Shown here: positions 12,535-44,746 of the stretch, piece by piece | How the letters are laid out: every line of letters starts with the position of its first letter | How positions within the stretch are numbered: the stretch's first letter is position 1 | Program-made: the position numbers and the translations under genes | From: Planctomycetota bacterium | GTDB taxonomy: Bacteria; Planctomycetota; E44-bin39 | Reading direction: 5' to 3' | DNA length: 64,000 nucleotides | Assembly: GCA_004376375.1 (NCBI GenBank) | Contig: SOJX01000049.1 | Coordinates: 1-64,000 of the forward strand | The notes under the pieces: model-generated | Database searches by the model: none | The model's input: only the letters and a program-made list of their open reading frames with translations | What the model was told of the DNA's origin: nothing

Positions 12535-12565
12535 TAAAAAAGCGGCCGGAATAGTTCCGGCCGCT
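12535..12565 (-). terminator. Terminator after the selenoprotein gene
   Basis: AGCGGCCGGAA and TTCCGGCCGCT form an 11-bp stem with a 3-base loop (12541-12564). On the minus strand it is followed by six T residues. It ends the transcript of the minus-strand pilZ and thioredoxin-like genes before yidC. Confidence 0.8.
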
Positions 12566-12576
12566 TATACTTAAGA

Positions 12577-12641: not shown

Positions 12642-13199
12642 TTACTCGTCCTTCTTATCTTCGTCCTTCTTGTCTTCGTCTTTCTTGTCTTCTTTTTCTT
12701 TTGCTTCTTCTTCCTCCTTTTTTTTCTTATCGCGTTTCTTCTTCTCTTTCTTCCAGGCCGATTTATTCTTTCTTTTCAGTTTCTTGAGCTTTGACAGCAT
12801 GTCGGTTGGTCTGCAAACCCCGGTGATCTTGGTGGTATATTTTCCGTTGAACAGGCAGAACACCACGGTCGGCATTGTCTTGTACCTGTACTTCTTTACC
12901 CATTCCGCGTTTTCTTTTTCGTTGGGGTTGATTACGATCCAGATAAAATTGTCATTCTCAGCAGCCACCTTTGCGTGCGAGAACACTCGCCGCCTCATGT
13001 CATCTCACTGGCCTCAGTCGCTGCTTCCCCACGGTGTCAGGAAGCCAATTACAACGGGCTTGCCGTTTTCGTCGGCTTCGTCGAACGCGGCCTTGACGTC
13101 GGAACGCCACGGCAGCTTGTCGGGATTGTCCTCGCCGTACAGCACTACCGGGGTCGCAAGCAGAAGAACAAGGGTTATGGTTATCGCCAGTTTCCTCAT
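12642..13199 (-). CDS. Secreted thioredoxin-like selenoprotein, UxxU motif
   Basis: One frame runs from ATG 13199 (AGGAG 8 bases upstream) to TAA 12642, interrupted only by two TGA codons at 13014-13016 and 13005-13007, residues 62 and 65 of 185. Read as selenocysteine they give SSD-U-GQ-U-DDMRRRVF, which aligns with the SDW-C-GW-C-KKL...VF pattern of Thioredoxin_7-type proteins. Other fold landmarks are intact on both sides: KPVVIGFL before, the cis-proline strand MPTVVF after. A signal peptide (MRKLAITITLVLLLATPVVL) predicts export. The C-terminus is a low-complexity Lys/Glu/Asp tail. A hairpin at 12973-12993 has the features of a bacterial SECIS. The alternative is a gene with two nonsense mutations. 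SelB/SelA genes are not in this window. Confidence 0.8.
12973..12993 (-). promoter_or_regulatory. Candidate bacterial SECIS hairpin
   Basis: In the mRNA, GCGAG-UGUU-CUCGC forms a 5-bp upper stem with a 4-base loop whose second base is G. A single bulged A separates it from a 3-bp lower stem (GCG/CGC-type pairs). The loop begins 19 bases after the second UGA and 28 after the first, both inside the window usually given for bacterial SECIS elements (about 16-37 bases, G in the first two loop positions). One element could serve both UGA codons. Confidence 0.65.
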
Positions 13200-13249
13200 G
13201 AATTTTTCTCCTTTTAGCATGTCAAAAGTAGGCGGTCGTCCAAGCGAAA

Positions 13250-13726: not shown

Positions 13727-15385
13727 TCATTCTTTTTCTTCGATAATCGTCGCCGTGAAAACGTAGACCGTAACCTCGGGGTCCTTTTCCCACGCGTCGC
13801 GCGCAAGCCCGGCCTTTTCCGAGGCGCATGACGAGAGGAACAGTCTCTTGAGCTCATCTTCGGATTTGTCCGGGTAATGCTTCCTGAAGTGATCGAAGAC
13901 CTGCGGGAGGTAAACGCCCCGCCTCCACCCCTTGGAAATCACGATTCCGTGCTTGCCGGGGATAAGGTCGAGCGGTTTTTCAATCGGCACGTTCTTTGAA
14001 AGCACGGATATCTCGATATGCAGGCTGTCCAGCTCTTTCCGGGTAACGGTGGGAAACCTGCTGTCTTCCGTCGCGGCGGAGACTGCCATTTTCTGGACGA
14101 TTTTGTAAAGCGGCTCGGTTGCGTTGTCGGTGAAGCGCCCGATGCAGCCCCTGAGCGCGTGAGTCTTTTTGACCGTCAGGGTTACGAAGCAACCCAGCTT
14201 TTCCTTCGCGATGTCGGACTTCGGCTCGTGCGACGGGACCGGCTTGCCGCCGAGCACCTGTTCGAGCGTTTTTCTGGCCAGGGTCAGGAGTTCCTTTGCC
14301 GCGGCCTCATCCATTACCGCCTCCTTTTTTCGGTAGCCGAGTTCCTTTGCCGCCGTGGTGATATGCCCGTCAACGACCGCCGCGAGATCCTTGAGTTCTT
14401 TGCCGGAGCCCGGATACCAGGACCCGGCGTACATTGCTTTACGGACGAGTTTGCTCGCACTCGCGGATTTCGGTTTTACCGCTTTGCCTGACGGGCCGGC
14501 GCCTTTCCTGCGCGTAAGCGCGACCGCACAGTAGCCTACGACCCGGGATTTATCACCCTTTGCGGTACCGCCGGAATTTGCGTACTTGAGTACGTGAACC
14601 TTGTCGGCGCCGAGCTTTTTCGCGGCGGCAAAACCGGCGACGGCCGCGTCCAGTCCGCAGAGCGCGCAGTCGAGTCCCTTGATTCCGGCCCCTCGCTGGG
14701 TCTTTTCGTTTTTGCGGAGCGCCTGCGGATCGAGCTTTTTCATAACTTCGATTGTCGCCGCATCGGCTTTTTTCGCATCTTCGTAACCCGGGAAATGCGA
14801 CATATCCGTTGAAATGACAATCAGCGCTTTCCGGCCGGTCATAACCTTTACAAGGGCGTCGGCGACTTTCGAGTCGTCACCTTCCGCGGTTTGTCTGTAC
14901 AGTATCGGAACTATCTTCGCGTCCGGCAGGGCGCGCTGAATGAACGGGACCTGGATTTCGAGTGAATGCTCCATCTTGTGTGCGGCCTCGCTGAACCCGA
15001 TTCGGTCGCTCGCTTCACGGAGCGCGGTTCCCGCCGTTTGGTCGATTTCAGCCTTTCCGAGGGGCGTCTCGTAGGCGGCGCCGTCGTATACCGACGCGCC
15101 GCTGACGGAAACCCTATGGGGAGACCCGATAAGAAAAACGGTATCAACGTCGAGCTGCGAAAGGACGGCGTATCCGTAGCCTGCGACGGGCGCGGAAAAG
15201 TCATAACCGGCATGCGGCACGACGATCGCGACGACTTCGCGGTCTTCCGGGATTGGCCCGTCCGTCCATTTCTTCCGGGGAGAGAGCTTTTTTTCCTTAT
15301 CGGATTCGTCGCCGGAAGTGAACGCGAAATATGTTCCGGCGGCGGCAACGGCAAGGATAATCAGGATTATGCCGAAAGTGCGCAT
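13727..15385 (-). CDS. Membrane-anchored Memo-AMMECR1 fusion (AmmeMemoRadiSam system)
   Basis: The ATG at 15385 has GAGGTG at good spacing; the GTG at 15394 is part of that site. The 552-residue product has an N-terminal membrane anchor (about 3-25), a Memo-like domain (45-300) with IVVPHAGYDFSAPVAGYGYA, GSPHRVSVSG, EHSLEIQVPFIQ and GYCAVALT, then a C-terminal AMMECR1 domain (370-550) with the diagnostic LRGCIGRF. The segment RKAMYAGSWYPGSGKELKDL, which normally begins Memo proteins, lies after the Memo body, suggesting circular permutation. It is divergent from the partner radical SAM operon at 15620. The biochemical role of this system is not established. Confidence 0.85.
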   Translation of the reverse strand: MRTFGIILIILAVAAAGTYFAFTSGDESDKEKKLSPRKKWTDGPIPEDREVVAIVVPHAGYDFSAPVAGYGYAVLSQLDVDTVFLIGSPHRVSVSGASVYDGAAYETPLGKAEIDQTAGTALREASDRIGFSEAAHKMEHSLEIQVPFIQRALPDAKIVPILYRQTAEGDDSKVADALVKVMTGRKALIVISTDMSHFPGYEDAKKADAATIEVMKKLDPQALRKNEKTQRGAGIKGLDCALCGLDAAVAGFAAAKKLGADKVHVLKYANSGGTAKGDKSRVVGYCAVALTRRKGAGPSGKAVKPKSASASKLVRKAMYAGSWYPGSGKELKDLAAVVDGHITTAAKELGYRKKEAVMDEAAAKELLTLARKTLEQVLGGKPVPSHEPKSDIAKEKLGCFVTLTVKKTHALRGCIGRFTDNATEPLYKIVQKMAVSAATEDSRFPTVTRKELDSLHIEISVLSKNVPIEKPLDLIPGKHGIVISKGWRRGVYLPQVFDHFRKHYPDKSEDELKRLFLSSCASEKAGLARDAWEKDPEVTVYVFTATIIEEKE

Positions 15386-15515
15386 GACTTTCACCTCGAC
15401 ACATGTGTTACGGCTGTTTTATTATGATACCGCGGCCCTGAAATGTTTTCAAGCCTTTTCCGTTGCCCGGCGGAGGCGGGGCTTGACGGCAACTAATACA
15501 TATGGTTAGATTAGT

Positions 15516-15619: not shown

Positions 15620-17500
15620 ATGTGGTCGCACGTTTTCGCGGGTTTCACAATCGGCCTTTCCGCAGGGCTGGGCTGTGTTGCAACGTGCGCGCCGATATTT
15701 CTCGCGGCAGGCCTCCAGGGCGCGGACGGACCCAGGCGCGGCGTATGGGCGCTTCTGCAGCTCCTTTTCGGCCGGCTTGCAGGTTACGTGGCGTTCGGCC
15801 TCGCGCTGGGCGCGGTCGGCAAGGCGCTCCTGCCCTCCGGCGTGAACATACTTCCTTTTTTCGGCATTGCAGAGATTCTGCTGGCAGCTTTTCTTGTTGC
15901 TTACGGCCTGGGGTTTGCCGCGAACCGCTCGAAGTTCTGTGCAGGGCTCGGGGCTGCAAACCGTTTCGCCCGTTTTCCGTTTTTCATAGGACTGCTGACC
16001 GGCTTTGCGTTGTGTCCTCCGTTTCTTGCTGCAGCGGTGGTAGCGCTCCGGGCGGAAAGTATTTCGGGCTCCGCTATCATATTTACGGCCTTTTTTGCAG
16101 GAACTTCCGTCTACGCTCTGCCGTTTTTCGTAGTCCCGTTTGCGGGCAAGGTTGTTTCAAGCGGCGCGCTCAGGCGGCTCGGGCAGGCCGCGGTTTTTGT
16201 GATGGCTGCGTGGTTCTTTATAAAAGGCGTCAGCGTTTTCTCGCCCGTGCCGAAAGTGTGGGAGCCGCCCTACCCCGAGAGCGCGGACCTCGCGGCCGTC
16301 GAGCCGGGCGCGACGCGTTTCGAATTTCTGAAGGCGCCGAGACGGAAATGGAATGCATACGAAGAAAAGACAGGCGCGCCCGCAATGGAGCGGCGAATCG
16401 GAATCATTTACTATTCCCAGGATACCTTCCCCGAAGGGCGCGCGCCGAAGGGTTATGCGGGGCCGGTCCCGTCCCTCGTTTCGCTGGATAACAGTGGAAA
16501 GATTCGCGGAATCTCGCTCCACCATAATATCGAAACCGGAAGCTATGCGGCACGGCTGGACCCGGTTTTTCTGCAGAGCCTGAAGGGCAAGCCTTATACC
16601 GACCCGTTCAGGGTCGGCGAAGATATCGACGCCATAACGGGCGCGACGAAGACACTGGACGCGTTTTTAATTTCGCTTCGCGAAACGGTGCGCGACGCCG
16701 CGTTGAACGACATGGGCCTTCCAGGACTGGCGATAGCCTCGTCAGACGTTAAACTGTCTTCAATCGGTCCTTTGCTGGCGCTTATTCCCCTGACTGCCTG
16801 CGCGTTGATCGTATATTTCATGGGGCTGACAAGGATTCGATACGTAATCCTCGGCGTAACGGTTATCGTGCTGGGTTTCGCATTTAGAACCTATCTGGAT
16901 TTGTCCGGTTTCCTCGGCGCCATACACAGCGGGGCGGATATCTTTACTACCGCTCCACAGTTTGCGCTTCTTCTCTTCATTGCGCTGGCCGGCTCCGCAG
17001 CTTTCGGCAGGTTTTACTGCGGCTATTTCTGCCCGTTCGGCGCGCTGTCCGAGCTTGTATCGAAAATACCGACGCCGAAGATCGCGCTTTCACGACGCGG
17101 GGACGGATTCTTCCGTCCCGCGAAATACATCGTGCTTGCCGGGCTCATCGTCGCTTATCTTATGACACGAAACGCCGGCGTCTTTTTCATCGAGCCCTTC
17201 GCAATCACCTTCGCCGCGCCGGGGCAGCTGTCGCTCATGTGGAGCGGCGGCTCGATGCTTGTGATTTTCGCCGGGCTGATGCTTGCCGTTAATCTTGCGA
17301 TCCCGCGTTTCTGGTGCCGGTATCTCTGCCCGACGGGCGCGTGCCTTTCGGTTCTGAGCCTTCTGGGAATATGGTATACTGAAAGAAAAGAGTCTGCGTG
17401 CCACGGCTGTTACAACCAGGGATTCGGGCGGCGGCACGAGTGTTTCAACTGCCTTCCGGTCCGCGGAGCTGCGCCGGATGGAATAAAAGATGAAACGTAA
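15620..17500 (+). CDS. DsbD-like/FMN-binding/NapH-type membrane electron-transfer protein
   Basis: This 626-residue protein combines three modules. Residues 1-210 are a multi-pass DsbD_2/TauE-like domain with two cysteines in GLGCVATCAPIF and a later CPP in the membrane. Residues 265-365 resemble an FMN-binding domain: DAITGATKT carries the Thr that in RnfG/NosR receives covalent FMN. Residues 380-626 resemble NapH/NosR: GYFCPFGALSEL, RYLCPTGACLSV, and a cysteine cluster CHGC...CFNC for iron-sulfur centres. It could carry electrons across the membrane. The start has AGGAG; the end overlaps the radical SAM gene by 11 bases. Confidence 0.8.
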   Translation: MWSHVFAGFTIGLSAGLGCVATCAPIFLAAGLQGADGPRRGVWALLQLLFGRLAGYVAFGLALGAVGKALLPSGVNILPFFGIAEILLAAFLVAYGLGFAANRSKFCAGLGAANRFARFPFFIGLLTGFALCPPFLAAAVVALRAESISGSAIIFTAFFAGTSVYALPFFVVPFAGKVVSSGALRRLGQAAVFVMAAWFFIKGVSVFSPVPKVWEPPYPESADLAAVEPGATRFEFLKAPRRKWNAYEEKTGAPAMERRIGIIYYSQDTFPEGRAPKGYAGPVPSLVSLDNSGKIRGISLHHNIETGSYAARLDPVFLQSLKGKPYTDPFRVGEDIDAITGATKTLDAFLISLRETVRDAALNDMGLPGLAIASSDVKLSSIGPLLALIPLTACALIVYFMGLTRIRYVILGVTVIVLGFAFRTYLDLSGFLGAIHSGADIFTTAPQFALLLFIALAGSAAFGRFYCGYFCPFGALSELVSKIPTPKIALSRRGDGFFRPAKYIVLAGLIVAYLMTRNAGVFFIEPFAITFAAPGQLSLMWSGGSMLVIFAGLMLAVNLAIPRFWCRYLCPTGACLSVLSLLGIWYTERKESACHGCYNQGFGRRHECFNCLPVRGAAPDGIKDET

Positions 17501-18665
17501 CACAGTACTTTTCGTAATCATATTTGCGATTGCCGTCGCGCTTGGCGCGGGTGCGCTCTCACAGGCAATCTCGCTGGGAAAGGAGCAGGCGCACGATTAT
17601 GCGCCGCCGATCACGCTCGAGGAGATACGCGCGGCCGCGCTCTCGCTCCATCCCGCGATGTACTGGCGCTCGCTCGGCGACGGGCGGATAAAATGCGACC
17701 TCTGTCCGGTAAGGTGCGTGCTCTGGCCCGGCCGTCGCGGCGCATGCAAAGTGCGCGTAAACCTCGACGGAAAACTCTACTCGCTGGTCCATTCCCGCAT
17801 CGCCGGACTCGGGGTCGACCCGATAGAAAAGAAACCGCTTTTCCACGTGGTTCCGGGCTCGGGCGCGTACTCGATTGCCACGGTCGGCTGCAACCTCGGC
17901 TGCATCTTCTGCCAGAACTGGGAGATTTCACAGGCCGACCCCGTGGAGTTCCATTCCGACCCCAGGCGAAGGCTGGTCCAGTCGCCCGAAGAGGTGGTGG
18001 CAAGCGCGAAGCGCTCCGGCTGCACCTCGATTGCATTCACCTACACCGAGCCGACGATTTTCTACGAATACATGCTCGAGACCGCAAAGCTGGCAAAAGC
18101 TGAAGGCCTGAAGACTCTCTGGATTACCTGCGGGTACATCAATCCCGAGCCGCTGCGCGAGCTTGTGCCGTACCTCGACGCGGCGAACGTCGACCTCAAG
18201 GGTTTTTCGGAAAAGTTCTACCAGACCTATTGCGGCGGCACGCTTGCCCCGGTCCTCGAAACTCTGAAGACGCTCAGGAAAATGGGGGTCTGGGTCGAGG
18301 TGACGAACCTTGTTGTCCCCGGCGCGAATGACTCTGATGAGATGCTGCAAAAGTTGTGCGAATGGGTGCGGGACAACCTCGGCGATGAAACGCCTGTGCA
18401 TTTTTCGCGTTACCATCCCGATTACAAACTGCGCCGCCCGGCGACGCCCGCAAAAACGCTGAAAAGGGCGAAAGGGATCGCGAAGGAAACCGGCCTGAAG
18501 CACATATACATCGGCAACTACTGGGTGCCGGACGGCGAAACGACTTTCTGCCCGAAATGCGAGCGCGAGATTATCGTGCGCGTTGGATATAGTATCAGGG
18601 CTAATAATATCAGGGATGGGAAATGCCCGTCGTGTGAAACTGAAATCTCCGGACGATGGAAATAG
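17490..18665 (+). CDS. AmmeMemoRadiSam system radical SAM enzyme
   Basis: The 391-residue product is a PflA-like radical SAM protein. TVGCNLGCIFCQNWEIS holds the CxxxCxxC cluster; upstream is the CDLCPVRCVLWPGRRGACKV cysteine region typical of this subfamily, and CPKC...CPSC at the C-terminus looks like a zinc ribbon. Unusually it begins with a hydrophobic segment (residues 4-27, TVLFVIIFAIAVALGAGAL) that looks like a signal anchor, although radical SAM enzymes are cytoplasmic. It overlaps the preceding electron-transfer gene. Its partners AMMECR1 and Memo lie divergently at 13727. Family substrates are unknown. Confidence 0.85.
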   Translation: MKRNTVLFVIIFAIAVALGAGALSQAISLGKEQAHDYAPPITLEEIRAAALSLHPAMYWRSLGDGRIKCDLCPVRCVLWPGRRGACKVRVNLDGKLYSLVHSRIAGLGVDPIEKKPLFHVVPGSGAYSIATVGCNLGCIFCQNWEISQADPVEFHSDPRRRLVQSPEEVVASAKRSGCTSIAFTYTEPTIFYEYMLETAKLAKAEGLKTLWITCGYINPEPLRELVPYLDAANVDLKGFSEKFYQTYCGGTLAPVLETLKTLRKMGVWVEVTNLVVPGANDSDEMLQKLCEWVRDNLGDETPVHFSRYHPDYKLRRPATPAKTLKRAKGIAKETGLKHIYIGNYWVPDGETTFCPKCEREIIVRVGYSIRANNIRDGKCPSCETEISGRWK

Positions 18666-34271: not shown

Positions 34272-34673
34272 ATGAAAAACGTGCTGTTCGTATGTGTGAA
34301 CAATTCGTGCCGCAGCCAGATGGCGGAAGCGTTTGCACGAAGGCATGCGCCTGAAAATATACAGATTTACTCTGCCGGCACCAACCCGACAGGTATTCAC
34401 CCCCGCGTATTCGAGGTTATGGGCGAAATTGGCGCACCTGTTGAAGGTCAGTATTCCAAGTCGCTTGACGAAGTTCCGCTGGACCGAATTGATACATGCA
34501 TAACGATATGCGGCAGCAAGGATTCCTGCCCGTCCATTCCCGGCGCAGCCCACCAGAACTGGGGATTGCCCAATCCTGCCGCTGCATTCGGCACCAAAGA
34601 TGAGGTATTGACGACATTCAGAAGTGTCCGCGATGAAATTAATAAACGTGTAAAGGCTTTGTTTGGAAAGTAA
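34272..34673 (+). CDS. arsC: Arsenate reductase (thioredoxin-coupled, LMW-phosphatase fold)
   Basis: The 133-residue product has the phosphatase loop VCVNNSCRSQMAEAF (CX5R), the second cysteine region CGSKDSCPSIPG, and a final active-site region NWGLPNPAAA close to the usual DP motif. In this family three cysteines relay electrons while arsenate is reduced to arsenite. No arsenite pump or ArsR is beside it; the next gene is a cytochrome with a metal-binding tail. Confidence 0.85.
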   Translation: MKNVLFVCVNNSCRSQMAEAFARRHAPENIQIYSAGTNPTGIHPRVFEVMGEIGAPVEGQYSKSLDEVPLDRIDTCITICGSKDSCPSIPGAAHQNWGLPNPAAAFGTKDEVLTTFRSVRDEINKRVKALFGK

Positions 34674-34782
34674 AAAAATTCCGAATAAACTGGCATAAGT
34701 ACCGTCTAAAACTGTAAATTCAGAGCAATTTCAGACCCCCTGTAATAACACACGAATGGGAACTCCGGTTCGAGGAGATGAC

Positions 34783-35274
34783 ATGAAAGCACAACCTTTT
34801 TTCCTGATACTACTTATAGTGGCTTTTTCCATGCTGGCGCCGGCCGGAGAAAAAGAAGATAAATCCCGGAAAAAGGCCGATAAGAAGAAACCTTCACCCG
34901 GAAAAGTGATGCAGGGAAAGATTATCTTTAACAACAGCGGTTATTTCAAGCCGGGCAGCAAGTCCTGTGCATCGTGCCATGTAACCGCCGGAAAGAACAG
35001 CCTGGCCGGCAGCGCCGACCGCTTGTCGGAAAAGGAGTTACGCAAGGAGATAAACTACTGCATTAAAGAGCGCATCAAAGGCAAGGAGAGGAAAGAAACT
35101 TCGACCGTAATGCGCGCCCTTGTCGCTTATCTGCAGTCGCTGAAAAAGGATAAGGACTGCAAGATCAGATATATCTACATATGCCCGGATGCCTGCGAAG
35201 GGGAAAAGTCGTACAAGAACCCGGGCGGTTGCCCGGAGTGTAAGAAAAAGATGCGCCGGATCAGGATTGATTAA
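34783..35274 (+). CDS. Cytochrome c with C-terminal heavy-metal-binding-like ribbon
   Basis: The ATG at 34783 has GAGGAG at good spacing. The 163-residue product has a signal peptide, a Lys-rich linker and a small class I cytochrome c core with the haem motif CASCH (near residue 67) and a possible Met ligand in STVMRALVAYLQSL. The last 30 residues contain ICPDACEGE...GGCPECKKKM, which resembles the heavy-metal-binding HMBD ribbon (YxCPM...CPxCGM). The combination suggests a periplasmic electron carrier with a metal site. Its position after arsC hints at metalloid chemistry, but this is inference. Confidence 0.75.
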   Translation: MKAQPFFLILLIVAFSMLAPAGEKEDKSRKKADKKKPSPGKVMQGKIIFNNSGYFKPGSKSCASCHVTAGKNSLAGSADRLSEKELRKEINYCIKERIKGKERKETSTVMRALVAYLQSLKKDKDCKIRYIYICPDACEGEKSYKNPGGCPECKKKMRRIRID

Positions 35275-35317
35275 GAACCTGCTGAAAGTCCGTGCAGAAT
35301 ATTACTCCTTAAAGTGA

Positions 35318-35378
35318 AAAGAGACAGTGCCCCCTACACTGTCTCTTTCCGCCGATTCCGTTGAGATAGGCCTATCTC
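35318..35378. repeat. Two adjacent palindromes after the cytochrome gene
   Basis: AAAGAGACAGTG and CACTGTCTCTTT form a perfect 12-bp stem with a 7-base loop (35318-35348). Fifteen bases later is the perfect 16-base palindrome GAGATAGGCCTATCTC (35363-35378). The first could end the cytochrome transcript; the gacagtgcccc word recalls the motif flanking hicB at 5196. Confidence 0.65.
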
Positions 35379-35381
35379 TTT

Positions 35382-35732
35382 TCAGAATCCTTTTAAACCA
35401 ACCGCCCCCGATATCTCCGGCACGGCATCGGGCAATTTTCCCATTGCCCGGTAAACCTTGCTCCGGTCGATAATCCTGCCCTTGGAGCGGAAGTATGGCG
35501 CATTGGGTATCCCCGTGCGCACTTCCCCTCTCATTTTTTTCGTGATTGTCCGCGGCATCATGAATGCGGCTTTTGCATTCGCGCTCTGCCGCGGATTGCA
35601 CCTCCCAGCAGCAGTCGGCCGAGACTTTCGTTTTGGCCGGTGCTTTTTTGAACTGTGGGGTTGCCAATCAACCCGGACAAGTATATTCAGGAGGTGCTGA
35701 CTCGTCAACAGATTTCTGCGCGCGTATTTCAA
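35382..35732 (-). CDS. Weak ORF of unknown nature
   Basis: The 116-residue frame has a basic N-terminal half and a C-terminal half (TGIPNAPYFRSKGRIIDRSK, then VYRAMGKLPDAVPEIS) that looks protein-like, but I do not recognise it. There is no good ribosome binding site, and overlapping frames on both strands are open. It may be a fragment of a transposase or nothing. The annotation is tentative. Confidence 0.2.
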   Translation of the reverse strand: MKYARRNLLTSQHLLNILVRVDWQPHSSKKHRPKRKSRPTAAGRCNPRQSANAKAAFMMPRTITKKMRGEVRTGIPNAPYFRSKGRIIDRSKVYRAMGKLPDAVPEISGAVGLKGF

Positions 35733-35842
35733 CGGCGGCTGCGCATGCAGCGGCGGAAAAAAGCATCCTTATCTAACTTGAGCGATGTATGCGACGTGTA
35801 TTTTGCTAAAATGACAATCGGGCTGAAAGGCGCTTAATTACT

Positions 35843-35865
35843 GGCATAGAGCGCGATGCCTTTTT
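35843..35865 (+). terminator. Terminator-like hairpin
   Basis: GGCAT, 8-base loop, ATGCC, then five T residues. It follows the stop (TAA at 35835-35837) of a short plus-strand frame, which is the only hint that something on that strand was once transcribed here. Confidence 0.4.
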
Positions 35866-36253
35866 CAACTTGCTCGTCGCATTTAGTGATTGATATCACG
35901 ACCTGTCGGAAATCATAATCTGTGTTTGACTTTATCGCCAGACGTTTGAAGGTGTTTGACACGGCATGTAAAAGTTAGTGCGAACTGCAATCTTCAATAA
36001 CGGAAAGAATTTTTTTGAACAGAAATGAAATATATTTTGGATTGTCTCGCGGAAGGGAGGGTCCGGGATGGTACGATATGGATTCGTGTCATGAAAAACG
36101 CCCAAAGTAGTTCAGCCGTATTCAGTTTCGGCGATTTTGACTTTTGATTGCCAAAATACTTTACAGAATAATACGTGAGACCGGTGCGGCAGCGTCAAAG
36201 TTAAACGTATACTGATGTATCAAATGTAAAAAAAAGATACGTATGTAAAAAGG

Positions 36254-36649
36254 TCAGTGCATTTGTGAGCGGATTACGTAACGGAAGATTTCGTCCTGCC
36301 CCTCTTTCGTTATCTCGCGGAACTTCAACCCCATGGCGCACTTGTCCGCGCCCTCGGGTATTGCTTCGATCCAGGCCACGCGTGTAAGCGCTTTGACGGG
36401 ATTTATAAGCTTGGGAATGAGGATATTTACTCCAACGACAATGTGCTGCATCAGAAGCGGCGTAATCCAGTCCGGTTTCGGCAACTGCCCGAGGAGCAGG
36501 AGGCCGCTGCCCGATATATTTCTTGTAACGCCCCCGCGAACTTTATCGTCGCCGAGATCAAGCTCGCGGGAGAGAAATCTATAGCGTACGGGTATGTCGA
36601 CTTTAATGCGGACAAATTCCCTTTTCTCTGTCTCGTATTCGAAACTCAT
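36254..36649 (-). CDS. PilZ-domain protein
   Basis: The 131-residue product has the PilZ arginine start KREFVRIKVDIPVRYRF and the second motif TRNISGSGLLLLG (NxSxxG), then the strand pattern ending CAMGLKFREI. It should bind cyclic di-GMP. It is the second PilZ protein in this window and lies alone downstream of fhs in transcription order, about 125 bases away and beyond a hairpin. Confidence 0.85.
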   Translation of the reverse strand: MSFEYETEKREFVRIKVDIPVRYRFLSRELDLGDDKVRGGVTRNISGSGLLLLGQLPKPDWITPLLMQHIVVGVNILIPKLINPVKALTRVAWIEAIPEGADKCAMGLKFREITKEGQDEIFRYVIRSQMH

Positions 36650-36726
36650 TGACCTTACTCCCCTAAACCCGCCGTATTAGGCGCTTCCGCAAAGCGGCGG
36701 TTTGACTTGATATTCCGAAGCAATTC

Positions 36727-36765
36727 TCCCGGGGAAGCGTAAACGGCGCTCCCCCGGGATTTTTT
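36727..36765. terminator. Strong hairpin between fhs and pilZ
   Basis: TCCCGGGG with AGCG pairs to CGCT with CCCCGGGA across a 7-base loop. The T tract follows on the plus strand, while fhs ends on the minus strand just beside it, so as a terminator for fhs it lacks a U tail. It may work by stem strength or as an mRNA 3'-end stabiliser. Confidence 0.5.
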
Positions 36766-36776
36766 CAAAGATTAGC

Positions 36777-38474
36777 CTAGAAAAGCCCGACAACCTTGCC
36801 TGTTTCAAGATCAATGTCGATATTTGTGCCGGCAGGAATCGTCGGCAGCCCGGGCATTGTGCTCATCTGACCGCAAAGCGGGTAAATGAAACCGGCGCCT
36901 ACACTTGCACGAACCTCCCTGATCGGAAGCGTGAATCCTTCCGGGCGTCCGACCAGTTTTGGATCATGTGACAGTGAGAGGTGAGTCTTAGCCATGCAGA
37001 GAGGCAGGTTACCGAAACCGGATGCCTCAAACTGCTTTATCTGGCGATTTGCCAGCGGTGTGTAAGAAACATCCGCGGCGCCGTAGATTTTCGTGGCGAC
37101 TGTCTCGATTTTTTCCTTTAAGGGCTTTTTGACATCATAGAGAAACTTGAAGTTCGAAGGCTTGTCGCAGGCTGCAACAAAGGCTTCTGCCACCTCGCGC
37201 CCGCCTTCGCCGCCGTCGGCGTGCACGTCCGATACGGCAATCGACTCAGCGCCTGCATCATCGGCAATTCGCCTGACAGCTTCGACTTCGTCGTCAGTAT
37301 CGGTGCCGAACCGGTTTATGATAACGACGGTCGGAACGCCGAACTTATTGACGTTTTCTATGTGTTTCGCCAGGTTGGCGCCGCCTTCTTCAACGTCGCC
37401 CGGGTTGTTTTCTGTAAGCTCCTTGGGCAGCGGTTTGCCGGCAACGACCTTGTATTTGCCGCTGTGGTGTTTCAATGCGCGGACAGTTGCCACGAGCCCC
37501 ACGGCATCGGGAACAAGACCGCTTGTGCGGCATTTGATGTCGAAAAACTTCTCGGCACCCATGTCCGCCCCGAAGCCTGCTTCGGTTGTGACATAATCGG
37601 TAAGCCTGAGTGCGATCTGGTCGGCGATGATGGAAGAGTTGCCGTGCGCGATGTTTGCAAACGGACCGGCATGAACAAATGCGGGCTGGCCTTCAAGCGT
37701 CTGCATGAGCGTCGGCTTGATAGCGTCCATCATCAGGACGGTGGCGCTGCCTGCGACTTTCAGGTCTTCGGTAGTTACGGGTTTGCCGTCGCGGTTGAAA
37801 CCGACCACGATTCTGCCGATACGCTCGCGCATATCCTTCAGTCCTGAAGTTAGCGCAAGAATCGCCATGATTTCGCTGGCCACGGTAATGTCAAAGCCGG
37901 TCTGGCGCGGATAGCCGTTCGCGCGTCCGCCGAGGCCGATTACAATGTCACGCAAGGCGCGGTCTGATACGTCCATCACCCTGCGCCAGTTGACATTAAG
38001 AGGATCCAGGTTGTGAGGATTGCCCTTCAGAATTGAAGTGTCGAGGAACGCGGCAATCAGGTTGTGGGCGGCTGTGATGGCATGGATATCGCCGGTCAGA
38101 TGGAGGTTGAAGTCCTCCATCGGAATGACCTGCGAGTACCCGCCACCGGCCGCGCCACCCTTGATGCCGAAAACCGGACCCATGGAAGGCTGGCGGATGC
38201 AGGTAATTACATTCTTACCGATTTTCCCGAAACCCTGGGTCAGACCGATTGTGCTGACCGTTTTACCTTCACCGAGCGGTGTCGGCGTGATTGCAGTAAT
38301 CAGAATGTACTTCCCCTTTGGCCGGTCCTTCAACCGGTCAAGGATATCGAGCTTTACTTTTGCCTTGTAGTCGCCGGAAAGCTCGAGTTCGTCGCGGTTG
38401 ACGCCCGCTTTTTCGGCGATCTCCCATATCGGCTGCATTGTTGCAGCCTGGGCGATGTCGAGGTCCGATTTCAT
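36777..38474 (-). CDS. fhs: Formate-tetrahydrofolate ligase
   Basis: Fhs joins formate to tetrahydrofolate using ATP, feeding one-carbon metabolism and, in acetogens, the Wood-Ljungdahl pathway. The 565-residue product has the phosphate loop TPTPLGEGKTVSTIGL, RQPSMGPVFGIKGGAAGGGY and the C-terminal PTIPAGTNIDIDLETG. Length is normal. GGAGGG precedes the ATG. No other folate-pathway genes are adjacent. Confidence 0.97.
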   Translation of the reverse strand: MKSDLDIAQAATMQPIWEIAEKAGVNRDELELSGDYKAKVKLDILDRLKDRPKGKYILITAITPTPLGEGKTVSTIGLTQGFGKIGKNVITCIRQPSMGPVFGIKGGAAGGGYSQVIPMEDFNLHLTGDIHAITAAHNLIAAFLDTSILKGNPHNLDPLNVNWRRVMDVSDRALRDIVIGLGGRANGYPRQTGFDITVASEIMAILALTSGLKDMRERIGRIVVGFNRDGKPVTTEDLKVAGSATVLMMDAIKPTLMQTLEGQPAFVHAGPFANIAHGNSSIIADQIALRLTDYVTTEAGFGADMGAEKFFDIKCRTSGLVPDAVGLVATVRALKHHSGKYKVVAGKPLPKELTENNPGDVEEGGANLAKHIENVNKFGVPTVVIINRFGTDTDDEVEAVRRIADDAGAESIAVSDVHADGGEGGREVAEAFVAACDKPSNFKFLYDVKKPLKEKIETVATKIYGAADVSYTPLANRQIKQFEASGFGNLPLCMAKTHLSLSHDPKLVGRPEGFTLPIREVRASVGAGFIYPLCGQMSTMPGLPTIPAGTNIDIDLETGKVVGLF

Positions 38475-38501
38475 CGTGGTGCCCTCCTGGTTTTGATTAA
38501 A

Positions 38502-38518
38502 GGTAAGATATCTTATCC
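38502..38518. promoter_or_regulatory. Palindrome upstream of fhs
   Basis: GG-TA-AGATATCT-TA-TCC is nearly symmetric, with a perfect AAGATATCTT core. It lies 28 bases before the fhs ATG in the divergent region shared with the porin gene and could be an operator; no regulator is known. Confidence 0.3.
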
Positions 38519-38685
38519 TAAAAGGTTATTATTCTTTTCCCGCATTTCCCCGGCGCCGGAGCAGTACGAACGCCTCCCCCGGTCCTTACTCCATAAACGG
38601 GCGAAAATTCTAGCATATCCGACATATACCGTCAATGAAAAATCGAAATACCCGGGTATAGCTTTATGTTTCATCTGGAATTTAT

Positions 38686-38714
38686 TTGCAGCATGGTCAC
38701 GGCTTCGCTATAAG
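38686..38714 (+). promoter_or_regulatory. Promoter of the outer-membrane protein gene
   Basis: TTGCAG (38686-38691), a 17-base spacer and TATAAG (38709-38714), 34 bases upstream of the ATG at 38749, followed by a GGAGG site. Confidence 0.6.
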
Positions 38715-38748
38715 AACGTAAGCAAACCTGTTACGCCACGGAGGGTGT

Positions 38749-40299
38749 ATGAGACTTTCTATCAGCTTTCTGGTAATTCTATGGTTGATTATCCCTGCTT
38801 CGGCCGGCGAAATTACGCCTGATAAAGAAAAGGAGCCGGAGGTCAAGGTTGATTCCGAATCCGATAACGACCAGCTCAAGGACCTGGTGAGACAAATCCT
38901 GCGTGAGCTCGAAGAGGAAAAGGAAGAGAAAAAGAAGACAGAAACTGAAAAACCCACCGCCGCGGAAAAGGAACCCGAGAAAGATGATAAGGAGCCCCTG
39001 TTCGGCTTCCCGATGAAGAATAACAGGAAAGGCTTCAGGTTCTACCTGGGCGGGTTACTTGACATCGAGCATATCTGGCATGAAACAAACGAAGGCAATG
39101 TGGATTTCATTACGGGAAAAGAATCGGGCGAATGGGAAGGGATTTTCAGGCTGAAGGAGTTCAAACTCATTCCCGAGGCGCGCTTCGGCTCTTTTGCCAC
39201 TTTGAAGGGGGAACTCGTATTCAAGAATATTGGAAACTACCGGACTAAGGGACACACGCATACGGTGGATGTTACTACCGGAAGCGTCTCGGAAACAACT
39301 TCGGAGTCCGACGATGAATACAAGACCAGCGCCGGGATAGAGGAATTTCACATAACGTTTCATCTCCCTTATGAGCACAAGCTGAAAATCGGACTCTATG
39401 AAAGATGGATGAGGCCGTCCCGTAAAACGGAAACATATCCCATGCTCGGCACCGCGTTCTGGTGGGACGAAACCATGCAGGTCCTTCTCACGGGCGAAAA
39501 ACTCACGGACTGGGGATTATACTACGCTCTCGGTTGGGGAACGGGCCTGACGTTCGGCAGCAAGGACATCGGTAACCGCAAAAGCCCTGCGACGGCGGGT
39601 GCGAACGCGGGCGAAGACCGGATATTCCACGACGACGACTGGGGAGATGAAAAAAAATGGGAATATACCGCCGGCCTGGGCTTCCGGTACGGCCTTAACC
39701 CCGAAAAGGACAAGAAGAGAAAAAAGGAGTATCTCGACCTGCGTGTATACTATTTCAACTCCCGAATGCTGGATGATGAAATCCAGTATCTGCAGGATCA
39801 TGTCTCCGGCTATCTCGGCACGCTCCAGCACCAGCACCGGGCCGGAGGAAGGTTCGAGTATTCCAGAAAAGGTTTTTATGCGGAAGCCGAATACGTGTGG
39901 GCCCGCGATGCCAGACTGGACCGGTACGGCTCATCTTTCGCGCTTGGATACAAGTTCAAGCTCGGCCCGGAAGGCAGGGGATATGAATACGGCAAAGAAA
40001 AGACCTGTATCTTCAAGTCTGTTTTCCCGCTGGTAAGGTTCGACGTCATGGAGCACAGCCTGCGCGGCTTCGTGATTGATAGTGCTTCCGGTCTGCCGGT
40101 GAAATACAGGAAGAATGTTAATGACCCGGCCGTGTGGGATCGGACCCAGCTTACGCTTGCGGTCATAACCGAGCTGACCGACAATATGGAACTGAAACTC
40201 GAATACGTAATCCGGGACGAAAATACGGGCGGCTTTACTTCGGCGGAAAGAAATGTTGATAATGACGAGATTCTTTTATTTTTCAGCTTCAAGTTTTAG
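38749..40299 (+). CDS. Outer-membrane beta-barrel (porin-like) protein
   Basis: The 516-residue product has a signal peptide (ending PASAG), a Glu/Lys-rich coiled-coil-like segment (residues 25-80; a periplasmic anchor is likely), and then alternating strands with aromatic girdles to the end. It terminates in LLFFSFKF, the C-terminal Phe signature used by the BAM machinery. The layout matches phosphate-selective porin OprP/OprO-type or alginate-porin-type families, but I cannot fix the substrate. It shows that the cell has an outer membrane. It has its own promoter and a GGAGG site. Confidence 0.8.
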   Translation: MRLSISFLVILWLIIPASAGEITPDKEKEPEVKVDSESDNDQLKDLVRQILRELEEEKEEKKKTETEKPTAAEKEPEKDDKEPLFGFPMKNNRKGFRFYLGGLLDIEHIWHETNEGNVDFITGKESGEWEGIFRLKEFKLIPEARFGSFATLKGELVFKNIGNYRTKGHTHTVDVTTGSVSETTSESDDEYKTSAGIEEFHITFHLPYEHKLKIGLYERWMRPSRKTETYPMLGTAFWWDETMQVLLTGEKLTDWGLYYALGWGTGLTFGSKDIGNRKSPATAGANAGEDRIFHDDDWGDEKKWEYTAGLGFRYGLNPEKDKKRKKEYLDLRVYYFNSRMLDDEIQYLQDHVSGYLGTLQHQHRAGGRFEYSRKGFYAEAEYVWARDARLDRYGSSFALGYKFKLGPEGRGYEYGKEKTCIFKSVFPLVRFDVMEHSLRGFVIDSASGLPVKYRKNVNDPAVWDRTQLTLAVITELTDNMELKLEYVIRDENTGGFTSAERNVDNDEILLFFSFKF

Positions 40300-40318
40300 A
40301 ATATTATAAAACTGTTAC

Positions 40319-40340
40319 GCGGGCGGGCAGGCCCGCACGC
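40319..40340. terminator. GC palindrome between convergent genes
   Basis: GCGGGCGGGC and its near-perfect inverse GCCCGCACGC form a stem with one mismatch. It lies between the 3' ends of the porin (plus) and rmuC (minus), where it could stop transcripts from both sides. It resembles the inner palindrome at 6466-6530. Confidence 0.5.
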
Positions 40341-40348
40341 CGGATATA

Positions 40349-41698
40349 CTAATCTTCCTCTTTATTAAATTCAGCCGGGATTTCGCGGATCGGCTTTTCT
40401 ATCATTTTTACTTCCTTGATTTCTGATGATTCCGGTACGGTTCCGAGCTCAACCAGCCTGACCCCGCTGGGCCTCACGCGCGTTTCCCATGATCGTACCG
40501 CTTTGTTGAAGGTTTCTCTCGCCTTATCCAGGCTCGAACCGACTCCGGCGAAATGGAAGCCGAACTTCTGTACCCTTTCAAATAGTTCTTTCGCTGCTTC
40601 TGCTATTCTCCCGGCATTTTCGGCCATTTTGCTCTGCTGCCAGACAAGCGCGGCACTGCGGAGAAGTGCGATCAGATTAATCGGGCTTGCCAGGATAACG
40701 TTCTGTCTTGTTCCGTCTTCGATAAGGTTTCCGTCATACATAAGCGCGGCACTGAAGAACGATTCCGCGGGCAGGAACATCACGACGAAATCCATCGATC
40801 CTTCCTGTTTCCAGTATTCTTTCCTGGCCAGCGCCTTCATATGATCCCGCACCTTCTTCGCATGTTGCTTCAGCGCTTCCTCCTTTTCACTATTATCCTG
40901 AGTCTCGAAAGCCTTGACATAATCGTCCCTCGGCACCTTTGAGTCGACAAGGATGAAGCGATTACCCGGAACATTTATCTTCAGGTCGGGTCTGATCGTG
41001 CGCTCATCACGCGACTCGGCCGTGGCCTGTTCCTCAAAATCGCAGTATCTGGACATCCCCGCCGCTTCGACCGCGTTGCGCAATGCCAGTTCGCCCCATT
41101 GGCCGCGTACCTGCGGCTTGCTGAGGGCATCGGCGAGTTTGCGCGCCTCGCCGGCAAGCATTTTGATTTGATCGTCGACTTTACCGTAGTCGCTTTTCAG
41201 GCTCTTTTCCATTTCCAGGACGTGTTTTTCATAACTTTCAAGCGTCGTCCTGAGCGGCTCAATGCGTTTGTCCAGATCGCCCTTCGTGGTTTCGAGAATT
41301 GTAGCGAGTGTTTCCTTGGCAAGCTTCAGGAACTCGTCACCGCTGCTTTTCAGTGCTTTGCCGGCGAGTGCGTCGAATGTATCGCTCAGCTTTTTCTGGG
41401 ATTCTTCAATTAACATGCGTTGCTCCTGCAGGTTTTTTCTTTCTTCTTCCAGACGGGCTTCGAAGGCAGTCCGCGCGGAACGTTCGGTATCGAGTTCTTT
41501 TCTCAAGCCGTCGATTTCACTTTCTTTTTCTTCCAGCTGTCCGCGTACCTCTTCGAGGCGTCCCTGAGAAGATTCGGCCTTTGCGTTGAGCTCGGAATTC
41601 TCCCTTGCGCGCATTGCGGCCGCACGTGCGGAAGCGATGAGCCATCCTGCAAGAGCGCCGATAACAAGTCCGGCAACGGCATATACTGCGTAAATCAT
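40349..41698 (-). CDS. rmuC: DNA recombination protein RmuC
   Basis: RmuC proteins limit inversion between short repeats and have a nuclease-like fold. The ATG at 41698 follows GGGGG and gives the usual N-terminal membrane segment (MIYAVYAVAGLVIGALAGWL). Residues 25-190 are coiled coil. The RmuC domain follows with VRGQWGELALRNAVEAAGM, RPDLKINVPGNRFILVDSKV and MDFVVMFLPAESFFSAAL. An ATG at 41755 would bury the membrane segment. Confidence 0.93.
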   Translation of the reverse strand: MIYAVYAVAGLVIGALAGWLIASARAAAMRARENSELNAKAESSQGRLEEVRGQLEEKESEIDGLRKELDTERSARTAFEARLEEERKNLQEQRMLIEESQKKLSDTFDALAGKALKSSGDEFLKLAKETLATILETTKGDLDKRIEPLRTTLESYEKHVLEMEKSLKSDYGKVDDQIKMLAGEARKLADALSKPQVRGQWGELALRNAVEAAGMSRYCDFEEQATAESRDERTIRPDLKINVPGNRFILVDSKVPRDDYVKAFETQDNSEKEEALKQHAKKVRDHMKALARKEYWKQEGSMDFVVMFLPAESFFSAALMYDGNLIEDGTRQNVILASPINLIALLRSAALVWQQSKMAENAGRIAEAAKELFERVQKFGFHFAGVGSSLDKARETFNKAVRSWETRVRPSGVRLVELGTVPESSEIKEVKMIEKPIREIPAEFNKEED

Positions 41699-41864
41699 TT
41701 TACCCCCGTATGTTGAACCGGGAAAACTGAAAACAAACGAGTCCGGGCGCAACATTCTGGAAGACGCCGCGCAAAACCATTATAACTTGTCAAGGATTCA
41801 TGTCCAGAAAATAGGTTTATTGCGGCTGGATTTCCGCAGTAAAGGCCCCTGGATAAGAAAGCAA

Positions 41865-41893
41865 TTGCATTCCCCCAAAACTCGTGGTAATAT
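41865..41893 (+). promoter_or_regulatory. Promoter of the kinase signalling cluster
   Basis: TTGCAT (41865-41870), a 17-base spacer and TAATAT (41888-41893). The next gene starts at 41928 after AAGGAGAG. The five plus-strand genes from 41928 to 54143 could all be read from here. Confidence 0.6.
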
Positions 41894-41927
41894 TACTGAA
41901 CAGGGGAAATGTAAGGAGAGTTAGTGT

Positions 41928-44648
41928 ATGACGACACCGGCTGAATTGAACTTTGGAAAGATAGCGATTAGCCATAAATTCATGACCCCGGTCCAGGTCA
42001 ACGAGTGCCTGGAAGTACAGCGTAAGATGCGTGAATTCGGCCTCGACGAGAAAAAGCTGGGCGAGGTCGCGATCGAAAAAGGATTTATCTCTTCACACCA
42101 GCGCACGTTAATCCTGAATATTCAGCGCGCCGAAGTGGAAAAACTGCGCAAAAAACGCGAGTTGGAACTGGCTGTCATCGAGCAGGAGGCCCGTGAACTT
42201 GCGACCGAGTCGGACGAAGAACCGGAACCGAAAGCGGCCGCACCCTCGGCAAAACCCGCCGGACGCCGCTCGTCGAGAAAGGCCTCGGCAATCCGTAAAC
42301 GGCCTTCGCGCCGTTCCAGCGCGAGAGCGCGCCCTTCGAGCCGAACCCCAAAGCGGGATTCAGCCATCCGGCAGGCGCCTGCCAGGGAAATCGACCCGGA
42401 AAGAGCCGCACAGCTTGATGAAGAACGACGCATCCGCCGCGAAGAAGAGCGCGAGCTCAAGATGCAGTCCAACCAGATGAAAATGGTCGTCGGCGCTATT
42501 ATGGGCGTGGCCGCATTGATTGTTATTGCCGTTATCGCACTGTCGGTTAATTGGGGCGGCGACCCTCAATCGACCGACAATATCGGCGATGAGCCCGGCG
42601 TCTCCGAACGGTCCGGAAAGGACAAAGAAAAACGCGCAGCTGAAAACCAGGCGGCTAATCTGTTCGGCAGCGCCCAGAGGTGCTACAACGAAGGCGATTA
42701 CCGGGGCGCAAGAGCTTTACTCAAGCAGATCTTCCAAAGCCCCGGCATGCGGGCGACCAGTTACCTGACAAGGGCCCAGTCGCTTGATAACAACGCCAGA
42801 AAGAAAATCGATGAGGCGGAAAGAGCCGGCCCTGTCGAGCCGGTGAATCCGAATAATACGGCAAACGGCGTCCAGCCCAGGATCAGTAAAGAAGCCCAGG
42901 AATTGTACACGAAGATCGTAATGGAGACCTTCGGCCTCAGAAGGGAAAAACAACTCTGGGACGCCGTGGTGGCGTTGGACCAGTTTCCAGACAGATATCA
43001 AGACACACCTGAATGGACAAAAGTGCAGGAAGAGAAGAAAAAACTCAGACTGGAAATAGGGCAGCTGCTTGAAGCCGATATCCGCGAAATCAAGGCATAT
43101 CTGGCAAAAAAGATGTTCAAGAAGGCGAAAGAAACCGCCGCTTCTATCCGCATTTATGCCAGTTCCGAACAGGTTGACAGGATACAGCAGTTAATCGCCA
43201 AAGGCATCGAGGATATGACGGCGGAAGAGATTGATACCGGCCTCGACGAAGGCGAGATGCTCCAGAAACTGTCAACGGCAAAGGCATATTTTGAAAGAGG
43301 TTTTCTCAAGAAAGCCCGCAAGATTTATGAAACACTCGCGCGGGACGATGATTTCATGAAGAAACATCCCCAGATCATTCGCGACCTGGACATTATCGCC
43401 CGCGTCACGCGGCTTTACAAGGCGGTGGGCGAGGCTATTCTCATGCTCCGTAAATCCACCTCCGCCTCGATCGGCCTCTATAAAAGGGGCAGGGTAAAGG
43501 GGAAAGTCATCACGGTAAACCTGAACGAAGTCCACATGAAAGACCAGTACACGGGGGACGACATCAAGTTCCATATTTCGGAAATCGACACGAAAGACCT
43601 GATTATTCTCGCCCAGAAACGCATGAACCCGGACCACGCGGAGACTGACATCGCAATCGGGCTGGTGTATCTCATGCGCGATCAGAAGGAAAAAGCCCGG
43701 GAACGCTTTTTCCAGGCGATGAAGCGGAGAAGGGACAAACCTCTTAGGATTGACCTCTTAATCGAAATGACGGACCCGAAAGCGGACGGTATCAGGACGC
43801 CGCCCAGACGCGTAAACGTAATGGATTTTTCGGAAACCGTCGAAGGCAAGGCTATCGAAGAAGCCAGGAAGGCATTCAGAGAAAAAGACTACAAGACTGC
43901 CTACCGCCTGCTCATGGACGCGCGCAGGAAATACGATACCAGCGCTGCATGGCTCCTGGCGGAGCGGGAAATCAACGATATGCTTGAAAAGTGCGCCGCA
44001 CAGCTCAAGAAGGCCTCTGCGTTATTTGCCGGCAAGTATATCGATATGGGCGACGGCACCGTGCGGGTTTATTACGACTGGTCCGATGAGACGCAACTCG
44101 GCGATTGGAAGGAATACAGCCTTGATACCGTCTATGACCTCATCCCTTACCCCTGGGAACTGGTGGATCAGGAAATCAAGGGGCGCGGGTCCAAGGTCTA
44201 TCTGTGGAACGGTATAATCGACGGCGATGTTACCATAGAGTTCGAAGCGGTCGGCGGCGGCGAGTGCCCGAGCATTCAGGCAACGTTATGCGATGATGGG
44301 GAAGGCGTGAACTATCTCTTCGGCGTCGGCGTAAAACGCCTCGGGCCCAAGAGAAATTCCATTACGCACTATGTAAAAAAGGGCACCAATAAAGTTCTGG
44401 TGAAAGAAAGCGCAAACGATATCAAGGTCGGCCAACGCTACATCGTCAAGATCGAAAAAGTCGGAAGCAAGCTGCGGCTATGGGTTGACGGAAAGCTCTG
44501 CGTTGAAACCGAGAATGACGACCTGGTTTCAGGGCATGTCGGTTTGTTTGCCGGCGGCTCGGGCCAGGGCGTGCTTTTCGATAACGTCAAGATTACCGGC
44601 AAACTGTCGAAGAAGTGGCTTCGCAGGCATAAGCGGTCGAAGAAGTGA
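41928..44648 (+). CDS. Transmembrane protein with sensor-like N-module and concanavalin-like C-domain
   Basis: The 906-residue product has four parts. Residues 8-65 are a small helical module (NFGKIAISHKFMTPVQVNEC, then LGEVAIEKGFISSHQ), also seen in the kinases at 44747 and 56881. Residues 90-180 are a very basic Arg/Ser/Pro linker. Residues 186-207 are a single membrane segment. Outside are TPR-like helices (220-690) and a C-terminal LamG/DUF1080-like beta-sandwich (720-890; GQRYIVKIEKVGSKLRLWVD). It has no kinase domain but otherwise mirrors the kinase that follows, so it may be a substrate or co-receptor. Confidence 0.75.
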   Translation: MTTPAELNFGKIAISHKFMTPVQVNECLEVQRKMREFGLDEKKLGEVAIEKGFISSHQRTLILNIQRAEVEKLRKKRELELAVIEQEARELATESDEEPEPKAAAPSAKPAGRRSSRKASAIRKRPSRRSSARARPSSRTPKRDSAIRQAPAREIDPERAAQLDEERRIRREEERELKMQSNQMKMVVGAIMGVAALIVIAVIALSVNWGGDPQSTDNIGDEPGVSERSGKDKEKRAAENQAANLFGSAQRCYNEGDYRGARALLKQIFQSPGMRATSYLTRAQSLDNNARKKIDEAERAGPVEPVNPNNTANGVQPRISKEAQELYTKIVMETFGLRREKQLWDAVVALDQFPDRYQDTPEWTKVQEEKKKLRLEIGQLLEADIREIKAYLAKKMFKKAKETAASIRIYASSEQVDRIQQLIAKGIEDMTAEEIDTGLDEGEMLQKLSTAKAYFERGFLKKARKIYETLARDDDFMKKHPQIIRDLDIIARVTRLYKAVGEAILMLRKSTSASIGLYKRGRVKGKVITVNLNEVHMKDQYTGDDIKFHISEIDTKDLIILAQKRMNPDHAETDIAIGLVYLMRDQKEKARERFFQAMKRRRDKPLRIDLLIEMTDPKADGIRTPPRRVNVMDFSETVEGKAIEEARKAFREKDYKTAYRLLMDARRKYDTSAAWLLAEREINDMLEKCAAQLKKASALFAGKYIDMGDGTVRVYYDWSDETQLGDWKEYSLDTVYDLIPYPWELVDQEIKGRGSKVYLWNGIIDGDVTIEFEAVGGGECPSIQATLCDDGEGVNYLFGVGVKRLGPKRNSITHYVKKGTNKVLVKESANDIKVGQRYIVKIEKVGSKLRLWVDGKLCVETENDDLVSGHVGLFAGGSGQGVLFDNVKITGKLSKKWLRRHKRSKK

Positions 44649-44685
44649 TTTCTGCGCCTTTTGCAGCGGATGAACGAGAATCCCC

Positions 44686-44734
44686 GTAGGGGCAGGCAAC
44701 ACTTGCGCGCGCGCCGTGTGTTCTGTGCCCCTGC
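44686..44734. repeat. REP-like imperfect hairpin
   Basis: GTAGGGGCA...ACAC and GTGT...TGCCCCTGC pair around a GC-rich alternating loop (gcgcgcgcgc). It fills the gap between the two first genes of the signalling cluster, ending 12 bases before the ATG at 44747, where it may weaken read-through or translation. Confidence 0.55.
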
Positions 44735-44746
44735 AATTCTAATGTA

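Follow-up and report, generated by a model that had tools for sequence, protein, structure and literature searches.

An in-frame UGA pair and its predicted reading as selenocysteine

Within the first 64,000 nucleotides of contig SOJX01000049.1 from a Planctomycetota bacterium (assembly GCA_004376375.1; this whole stretch is referred to here as the window), a minus-strand gene of thioredoxin character is interrupted by two TGA codons, which raises the question of whether these are stops or are read as selenocysteine (Sec, U). Our analysis of the sequence and its homologues leads to the prediction that the gene very probably encodes an exported thioredoxin-fold oxidoreductase with Sec at both positions of its redox motif (UGQU). 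The frame, 13199..12642, comprises 185 codons plus TAA, and its sole in-frame stops are TGA62 and TGA65, such that the motif region spells SSD-U-GQ-U-DDM. A sequence-only reading of this DNA had described a frame from ATG to TAA broken by nothing but the two TGAs and free of frameshifts; the frame is indeed intact, with no further stop, and an AAGGAG precedes its ATG. By arithmetic, the chance of two random stops among 185 codons landing on both motif columns is 1 in 17,020, before demanding that both be TGA.

The same reading held that TGA is not generally reassigned. Consistent with this, TGA terminates 8 of the 33 non-overlapping open reading frames (ORFs) of at least 200 codons in the window and is thus still a stop, so that general reassignment of UGA was rejected. 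UGA is read as Trp in some bacteria, and decoding by a near-cognate tRNA could be proposed on that precedent; here it is barely credible, as TGA ends these ORFs, the two positions are Cys columns and the genome contains both tRNA-Sec and SelB.

Domain searches with the window protein (P0001), run with C in place of U, passed the Pfam gathering cut-offs for Thioredoxin_7 (PF13899; 31.8 bits, cut-off 27) and Thioredoxin_2 (PF13098; 28.1 bits, cut-off 27), and Thioredox_DsbH (PF03190) scored just under its cut-off (25.5 bits, cut-off 27). The best NCBIfam match was to the C-terminal part of TsoB (NF045694; 40.2 bits, cut-off 805); the NCBIfam DsbD cut-off of 330 bits was not reached (29.3 bits), and the Trx7/PDZ family NF041199 (cut-off 300 bits) gave no NCBIfam match at E <= 0.1. 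Pfam returned no PDZ domain and, at E <= 0.001, no peroxiredoxin-like domain (PF00578).

In a 24-row alignment (A3), the U62 and U65 columns are nearly invariant (>=90%) and Pro110 is the single invariant column, which bears out the earlier statements that the TGAs occupy the CxxC positions of Thioredoxin_7-type proteins and that the cis-Pro is intact. The rows are P0001, its paralogue P0006, 20 Thioredoxin_7-type sequences taken from this genome and across the phylum (TGA in 18, CxxC in 2) and two metagenome proteins without the motif region; they were chosen from search matches with a preference for TGA-bearing sequences, and the homologue P0005, present in alignments A1 and A2, was omitted. 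An AlphaFold2 model based on the 24 sequences (predicted local distance difference test, pLDDT, 90; predicted template modelling score, pTM, 0.79) adopts a thioredoxin fold, in which a strand (residues 49-53) is followed by the motif, a helix (63-73), Pro110, a second strand (111-115) and, at the C-terminal end, a long charged helix (131-183), and its active site shows the usual thioredoxin arrangement. The closest PDB folds are the DsbD gamma domain, first, and DsbH, second.

Two stops in one gene could also mark a pseudogene decaying through two chance nonsense mutations. This is very unlikely given that both stops are TGA and both lie on motif columns, that there is neither a frameshift nor another stop, that the start signal and the whole fold are intact and that the paralogue retains the same codon type at its motif.

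Homologues carry TGA at the same motif

The paralogue P0006, located on contig C51, is 51% identical to P0001 and has one TGA, in the motif UPGC. The protein database yielded four, then five, close relatives. P0002, 99% identical to the window protein, is annotated as starting at its residue 71, and P0004 corresponds to the downstream part of the paralogue. The annotated starts of P0002, P0003 and P0004 fall just past the motif, the pattern that a stop codon within the true frame would produce; that of P0007 lies farther downstream and is less informative. P0003 and P0007 come from metagenome contigs of 814 bp and 11,305 bp, respectively. The same four starts would also fit two separate frames, the first ending at UGA62 and the second re-initiating past the motif, as gene callers annotate. 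Such an arrangement is even less probable than decay: the modelled fold spans the motif at high confidence, the downstream piece would be without strand 49-53 and the export signal, and no Shine-Dalgarno sequence is visible before the internal ATG, whereas the ATG at 13199 has AAGGAG. Because the database entries of the window gene and of its paralogue begin past the motif, proteins of this sort are probably undercounted in databases.

Beyond these relatives, a search with P0001 at E <= 0.001 hit 41 of 99 genomes, its own among them and the others through distant proteins of Thioredoxin_7-like type. With P0006 at E <= 1e-6 the figure was 31 of 392, and with the group profile at E <= 1e-8 it was 375 of 392. 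Where the frame was read, a TGA within the thioredoxin domain generally replaces the first motif Cys (WUGPC, SPTUAGC, YTDWUGYC and others). Exceptions to this placement are L102 and L106, where the TGA lies near the match end, and L121 (UxxA) and L123 (UxxP), where it stands at the first Cys column without a second Cys; of two other loci, L061 was read out of frame and L067 incompletely. Many homologues across the phylum read UxxC, and Cys forms also occur. The sequence-only reading had proposed looking for Cys-containing homologues and had regarded random stops or frameshifts in close homologues as a sign of a pseudogene. CxxC forms do exist at the motif, and what the homologues show there, in the UPGC paralogue and in the UxxC proteins of the phylum, is TGA at the motif instead of random stops or frameshifts. 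Two candidate UxxU proteins from other genomes were rejected: G020:C42 has one TGA at the motif and the other near the match end, and G370:C6 has a CxxC motif with its TGAs near the match end.

Further thioredoxin-like genes of the window's own genome have a single TGA, in the first position of the motif. These are L158 (1525-2910, plus strand; UGGC) and, without a second Cys, L157 (2274-3614, minus strand; UPPA) and L159 (924-2039, minus strand; UGGP).

A second UxxU family in the phylum

A profile search located 18 thioredoxin-like places in the genome. Its copy of the Trx7/PDZ family NF041199 (P0008, contig C48; 378.1 bits, cut-off 300), which carries a Thioredoxin_7 domain, reads RUVPUGSF and hence has a second double-TGA motif, UVPU. 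At E <= 1e-30 NF041199 has matches in 123 of 392 genomes, 109 of them over its cut-off. Among the matches listed, 66 carry two TGAs (one carries three), and in all 66, the own-genome copy included, TGA stands at both motif ends. This set is made up of 8 among 30 returned loci, the own-genome copy and 57 genes read in their first part only (57/57 UxxU); at the same columns, the 30 returned loci divide into 8 UxxU, 8 CxxU and 14 CxxC. The presence of a second UxxU protein in the genome, together with 65 more listed matches in the phylum, makes a double-Sec Thioredoxin_7-type motif credible.

The genome encodes Sec machinery

The source assembly is a 5.68-Mb draft genome of 157 contigs, 93.79% complete. 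It contains tRNA-Sec with anticodon UCA, selA, a Sec-type selD with an in-frame TGA in CAGUAG, and three selB genes above the family cut-off that are 34-39% identical to one another; the sel genes and tRNA-Sec that the sequence-only reading had suggested looking for are thus found in the same genome as the window gene. The SelB-type proteins are encoded on C76, C156 and C10 (L011, L010 and L012), and one adjoins selA. Separate SelBs possibly serve separate types of Sec insertion sequence (SECIS), which is a guess.

Other proteins of this genome also have in-frame TGAs. At G000:C51, around 34482-47444 (the region of L022-L025, L112, L117, L119, L120 and L122), five thioredoxin-like paralogues have a TGA past an N-terminal hydrophobic stretch and before a Gly-rich run, with a Cys-Sec pair in four of the five (CUGG, CUGS); a sixth paralogue of this type, L116 on C65, has no such TGA. 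About 1.7 kb before the selB of C156, a 241-codon frame (L095, 5522-6244, minus strand) contains three in-frame TGAs; it resembles DF family (seleno)proteins in its first part (43.5 bits against a cut-off of 70) and MerC at the end (24.9 bits against 27.6). Also on C51, a multihaem cytochrome-like protein (L091, 3618-5219, plus strand) has a C-terminal thioredoxin part with UEGC, and its neighbours resemble, by eye only, an arsenic operon.

SECIS-like hairpins past the motifs

Hairpins were assessed by placement rules that we take to be those of bSECISearch, with the loop 16-37 nt past the UGA and a G in the first two loop positions. In the window gene, the loop of a SECIS-like hairpin begins 28 nt and 19 nt past UGA62 and UGA65. 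The stability of this hairpin, -15.1 kcal/mol, is reached by 41% of UxxC and 20% of CxxC sites; that of the paralogue is unremarkable, 55% of Cys sites being as stable. Across Thioredoxin_7 homologues, SECIS-placed hairpins average -14.4 kcal/mol at 27 UxxC sites (2 of which, L072 and L087, resemble chance frames and several of which are near-duplicates, all kept) versus -8.5 kcal/mol at 35 CxxC sites (P = 7e-5), with GC contents of 0.57 and 0.54, respectively.

In the 66 UxxU genes of NF041199, 7 pairs and a 5-nt loop (AGGTT in 37/66) make up a hairpin whose loop lies 34 nt and 25 nt past the two UGAs. In these genes 412 of 462 cells are paired, compared with 378.1 +/- 3.4 after partner permutation, the observed value being reached in 0 of 500 permutations, although kinship among sequences can push pairing above such permutations without structure. 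One pair varies (GC 40, AT 8, TA 5, CG 5, GT 2 and broken AC 6). The hairpin is complete, with all 7 pairs, in 43 of the 66 genes, and 5 of 7 form in the own-genome copy, near whose motif Rfam gave no SECIS at E <= 10. At the same columns, the 14 CxxC relatives, which lack the hairpin, pair in only 18 of 98 cells and CxxU relatives in 29 of 56. The contrast between the UxxU and CxxC members speaks for a function of the hairpin, and the SECIS of the CxxU members may lie elsewhere. For 57 of the UxxU sequences the RNAalifold energy lies below all 100 synonymous redraws, whereas in single-sequence folding it is lower than the redraws in only 37 of 57 (P = 0.054).

Weighing one Sec against two

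Several observations weigh against Sec at both positions of the window protein. The gene was read in one draft genome assembly only, and scans of genome contigs found no UxxU orthologue of it. P0005, a homologue of the C-terminal part on a 789-bp contig, is irregular upstream and seems to be without the motif, which may reflect a frameshift, a deletion or an assembly fault. The hairpin by itself is not exceptional: of 400 Cys sites sampled from 790, 12.5% are equally stable, as are 56 of 300 synonymous redraws for codon 62 and 17 of 300 for codon 65. With its gathering cut-off, Rfam reported no SECIS anywhere in the window, and around the motif it gave none at E <= 10. A codon-usage scan for Sec codons, which is noisy and served for leads only, gives the window UGAs low scores, at ranks 36 and 56 of 2948.

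An alternative that draws on the single assembly is that only UGA62 is read as Sec, and that codon 65 reflects a sequencing fault or a recent mutation of Cys to stop; in the paralogue, as in the other Sec-type homologues read among the near relatives of the window gene, there is likewise a single TGA, at the first position. We consider this unlikely, since UxxU recurs in P0008 of this genome and in 65 further listed NF041199 matches, and since codon 65, 19 nt before the hairpin loop, is in reach of one SECIS.

Proposed function and genomic context

With Sec at both positions, the single hairpin would recruit SelB for both UGAs. The protein is predicted to be exported through its likely signal peptide. 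The DsbD-gamma and DsbH fold matches, together with a nearby DsbD_2 protein, suggest that it is a reductase or an electron-transfer domain of the periplasm that rests as a diselenide. Resembling a free-standing DsbD-gamma domain, the enzyme would serve as a thiol/selenol reductase beyond the cytoplasm, and a membrane protein of CcdA/DsbD type, for example the product of 15620-17500, might keep it reduced. The diselenide centre, electron donor and substrate are predictions by analogy; substrate, partner and direction amount to guesses. The DsbD_2/FMN_bind gene is flanked by a Memo-AMMECR1 fusion (13727-15394, minus strand) and a radical SAM protein (17490-18665, plus strand), a set that we take to resemble AmmeMemoRadiSam.

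Table 1. Positions of the predicted selenoprotein gene, its parts and nearby features in the window
Feature	Position	Strand	Basis or remark
Predicted UxxU thioredoxin-fold protein gene	12642..13199	-	185 residues; frame, Pfam, alignment, AlphaFold model
UGA codon 62, first UxxU position	13014..13016	-	Frame; near-invariant Cys/Sec column
UGA codon 65, second UxxU position	13005..13007	-	Frame; near-invariant Cys/Sec column
SECIS-like hairpin, 8 pairs, one bulged base, loop UGUU	12973..12993	-	Folding; UxxC-typical strength, not decisive alone
AAGGAG, likely ribosome-binding site	13208..13213	-	Sequence; 8 bases upstream of ATG 13199
Likely signal peptide, ~residues 1-22	13134..13199	-	By eye only (MRK, hydrophobic stretch, VLYG-E)
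Pro110, cis-Pro position of thioredoxins, invariant	12870..12872	-	Alignment and AlphaFold model
Long charged C-terminal helix, residues 131-183	12651..12809	-	AlphaFold model
Terminator-like hairpin and T run 3' of gene	12540..12566	-	Weak: 2 such sites vs 2.4 expected in shuffles
DsbD_2/FMN_bind/Fer4_5 membrane protein, possible electron donor (guess)	15620..17500	+	Pfam; 2.4 kb away, opposite strand

Few of the proteins described so far have a diselenide active site. We somewhat favor the view that this phylum made a UxxU diselenide site routine in exported thioredoxin-fold proteins, that the site evolved at least twice, with one SECIS serving two UGAs three codons apart, and that it supports a Se-Se branch of periplasmic redox chemistry. 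If so, the two origins would be the small Thioredoxin_7 protein of the window and the Trx7/PDZ family, and the phylum would supply numerous natural examples in which two UGAs share a single SECIS. The more surprising result is UxxU as a common state of the phylum's Trx7/PDZ proteins, accompanied by a covarying hairpin. The UxxU, CxxU and CxxC members of NF041199, with the UxxC homologues of Thioredoxin_7 type, form a natural series for the benefit of the second selenium, which makes its gain testable in redox potential, resistance to over-oxidation and metal or metalloid chemistry.

Comparison with known systems

As is predicted for the window protein, the SelL and peroxiredoxin-like (Prx-like) proteins have two Sec in UxxU at a thioredoxin-fold active site, in keeping with the earlier remark that UxxU exists in a few selenoproteins, and a diselenide was reportedly shown for SelL by Shchedrina in 2007. 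They belong to the peroxiredoxin-like family (PF00578), which the window protein does not match at E <= 0.001. The DsbD gamma domain and DsbH, its best PDB folds, carry cysteines where it has UxxU, and the window protein is not within a DsbD polypeptide.

The Trx7/PDZ family shares Thioredoxin_7 and UxxU with the window protein (66/66 listed two- or three-TGA matches) but has PDZ domains and ~390 model positions; a 2026 review (PMC13188914) gives it as CxxU, with one Sec. The thiol:disulfide interchange selenoprotein of PF13098 has Sec at the first motif position, as is predicted for the window protein, and is given as UxxC with one Sec in PMC13188914 and PMC9312934. TsoB, a rhodanese/DsbD fusion-like selenoprotein of 572 positions, of which P0001 covers 438-571, is listed with two Sec as UxxxxU in PMC13188914.

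UxxU is given for a Prx-like oxidoreductase, for the metal-binding protein NF041115 and for an FmdB-type protein (PMC13188914), for Prx-like 2 (PMC2398784), for eukaryotic SELENOW (PMC7539508) and for a Prx-like oxidoreductase and a putative mercuric reductase (PMC9312934). The lists in the available parts of the selenoprotein reviews include no UxxU for Thioredoxin_7/_2 or Trx7/PDZ proteins, and no literature title was found that announces a UxxU Thioredoxin_7 or Trx7/PDZ protein, in a search at title level with the subscription literature mostly outside it. The sequence-only reading knew of no description of a UxxU form of this type. No UxxU orthologue of the window gene was found in the genome contigs scanned. 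The motif, for its part, is more widespread than that reading supposed, being common in the phylum's Trx7/PDZ proteins and known in SelL/Prx-like proteins. UxxU itself is therefore already known, and the new part is its predicted occurrence, read from sequence, in a Thioredoxin_7-type protein.
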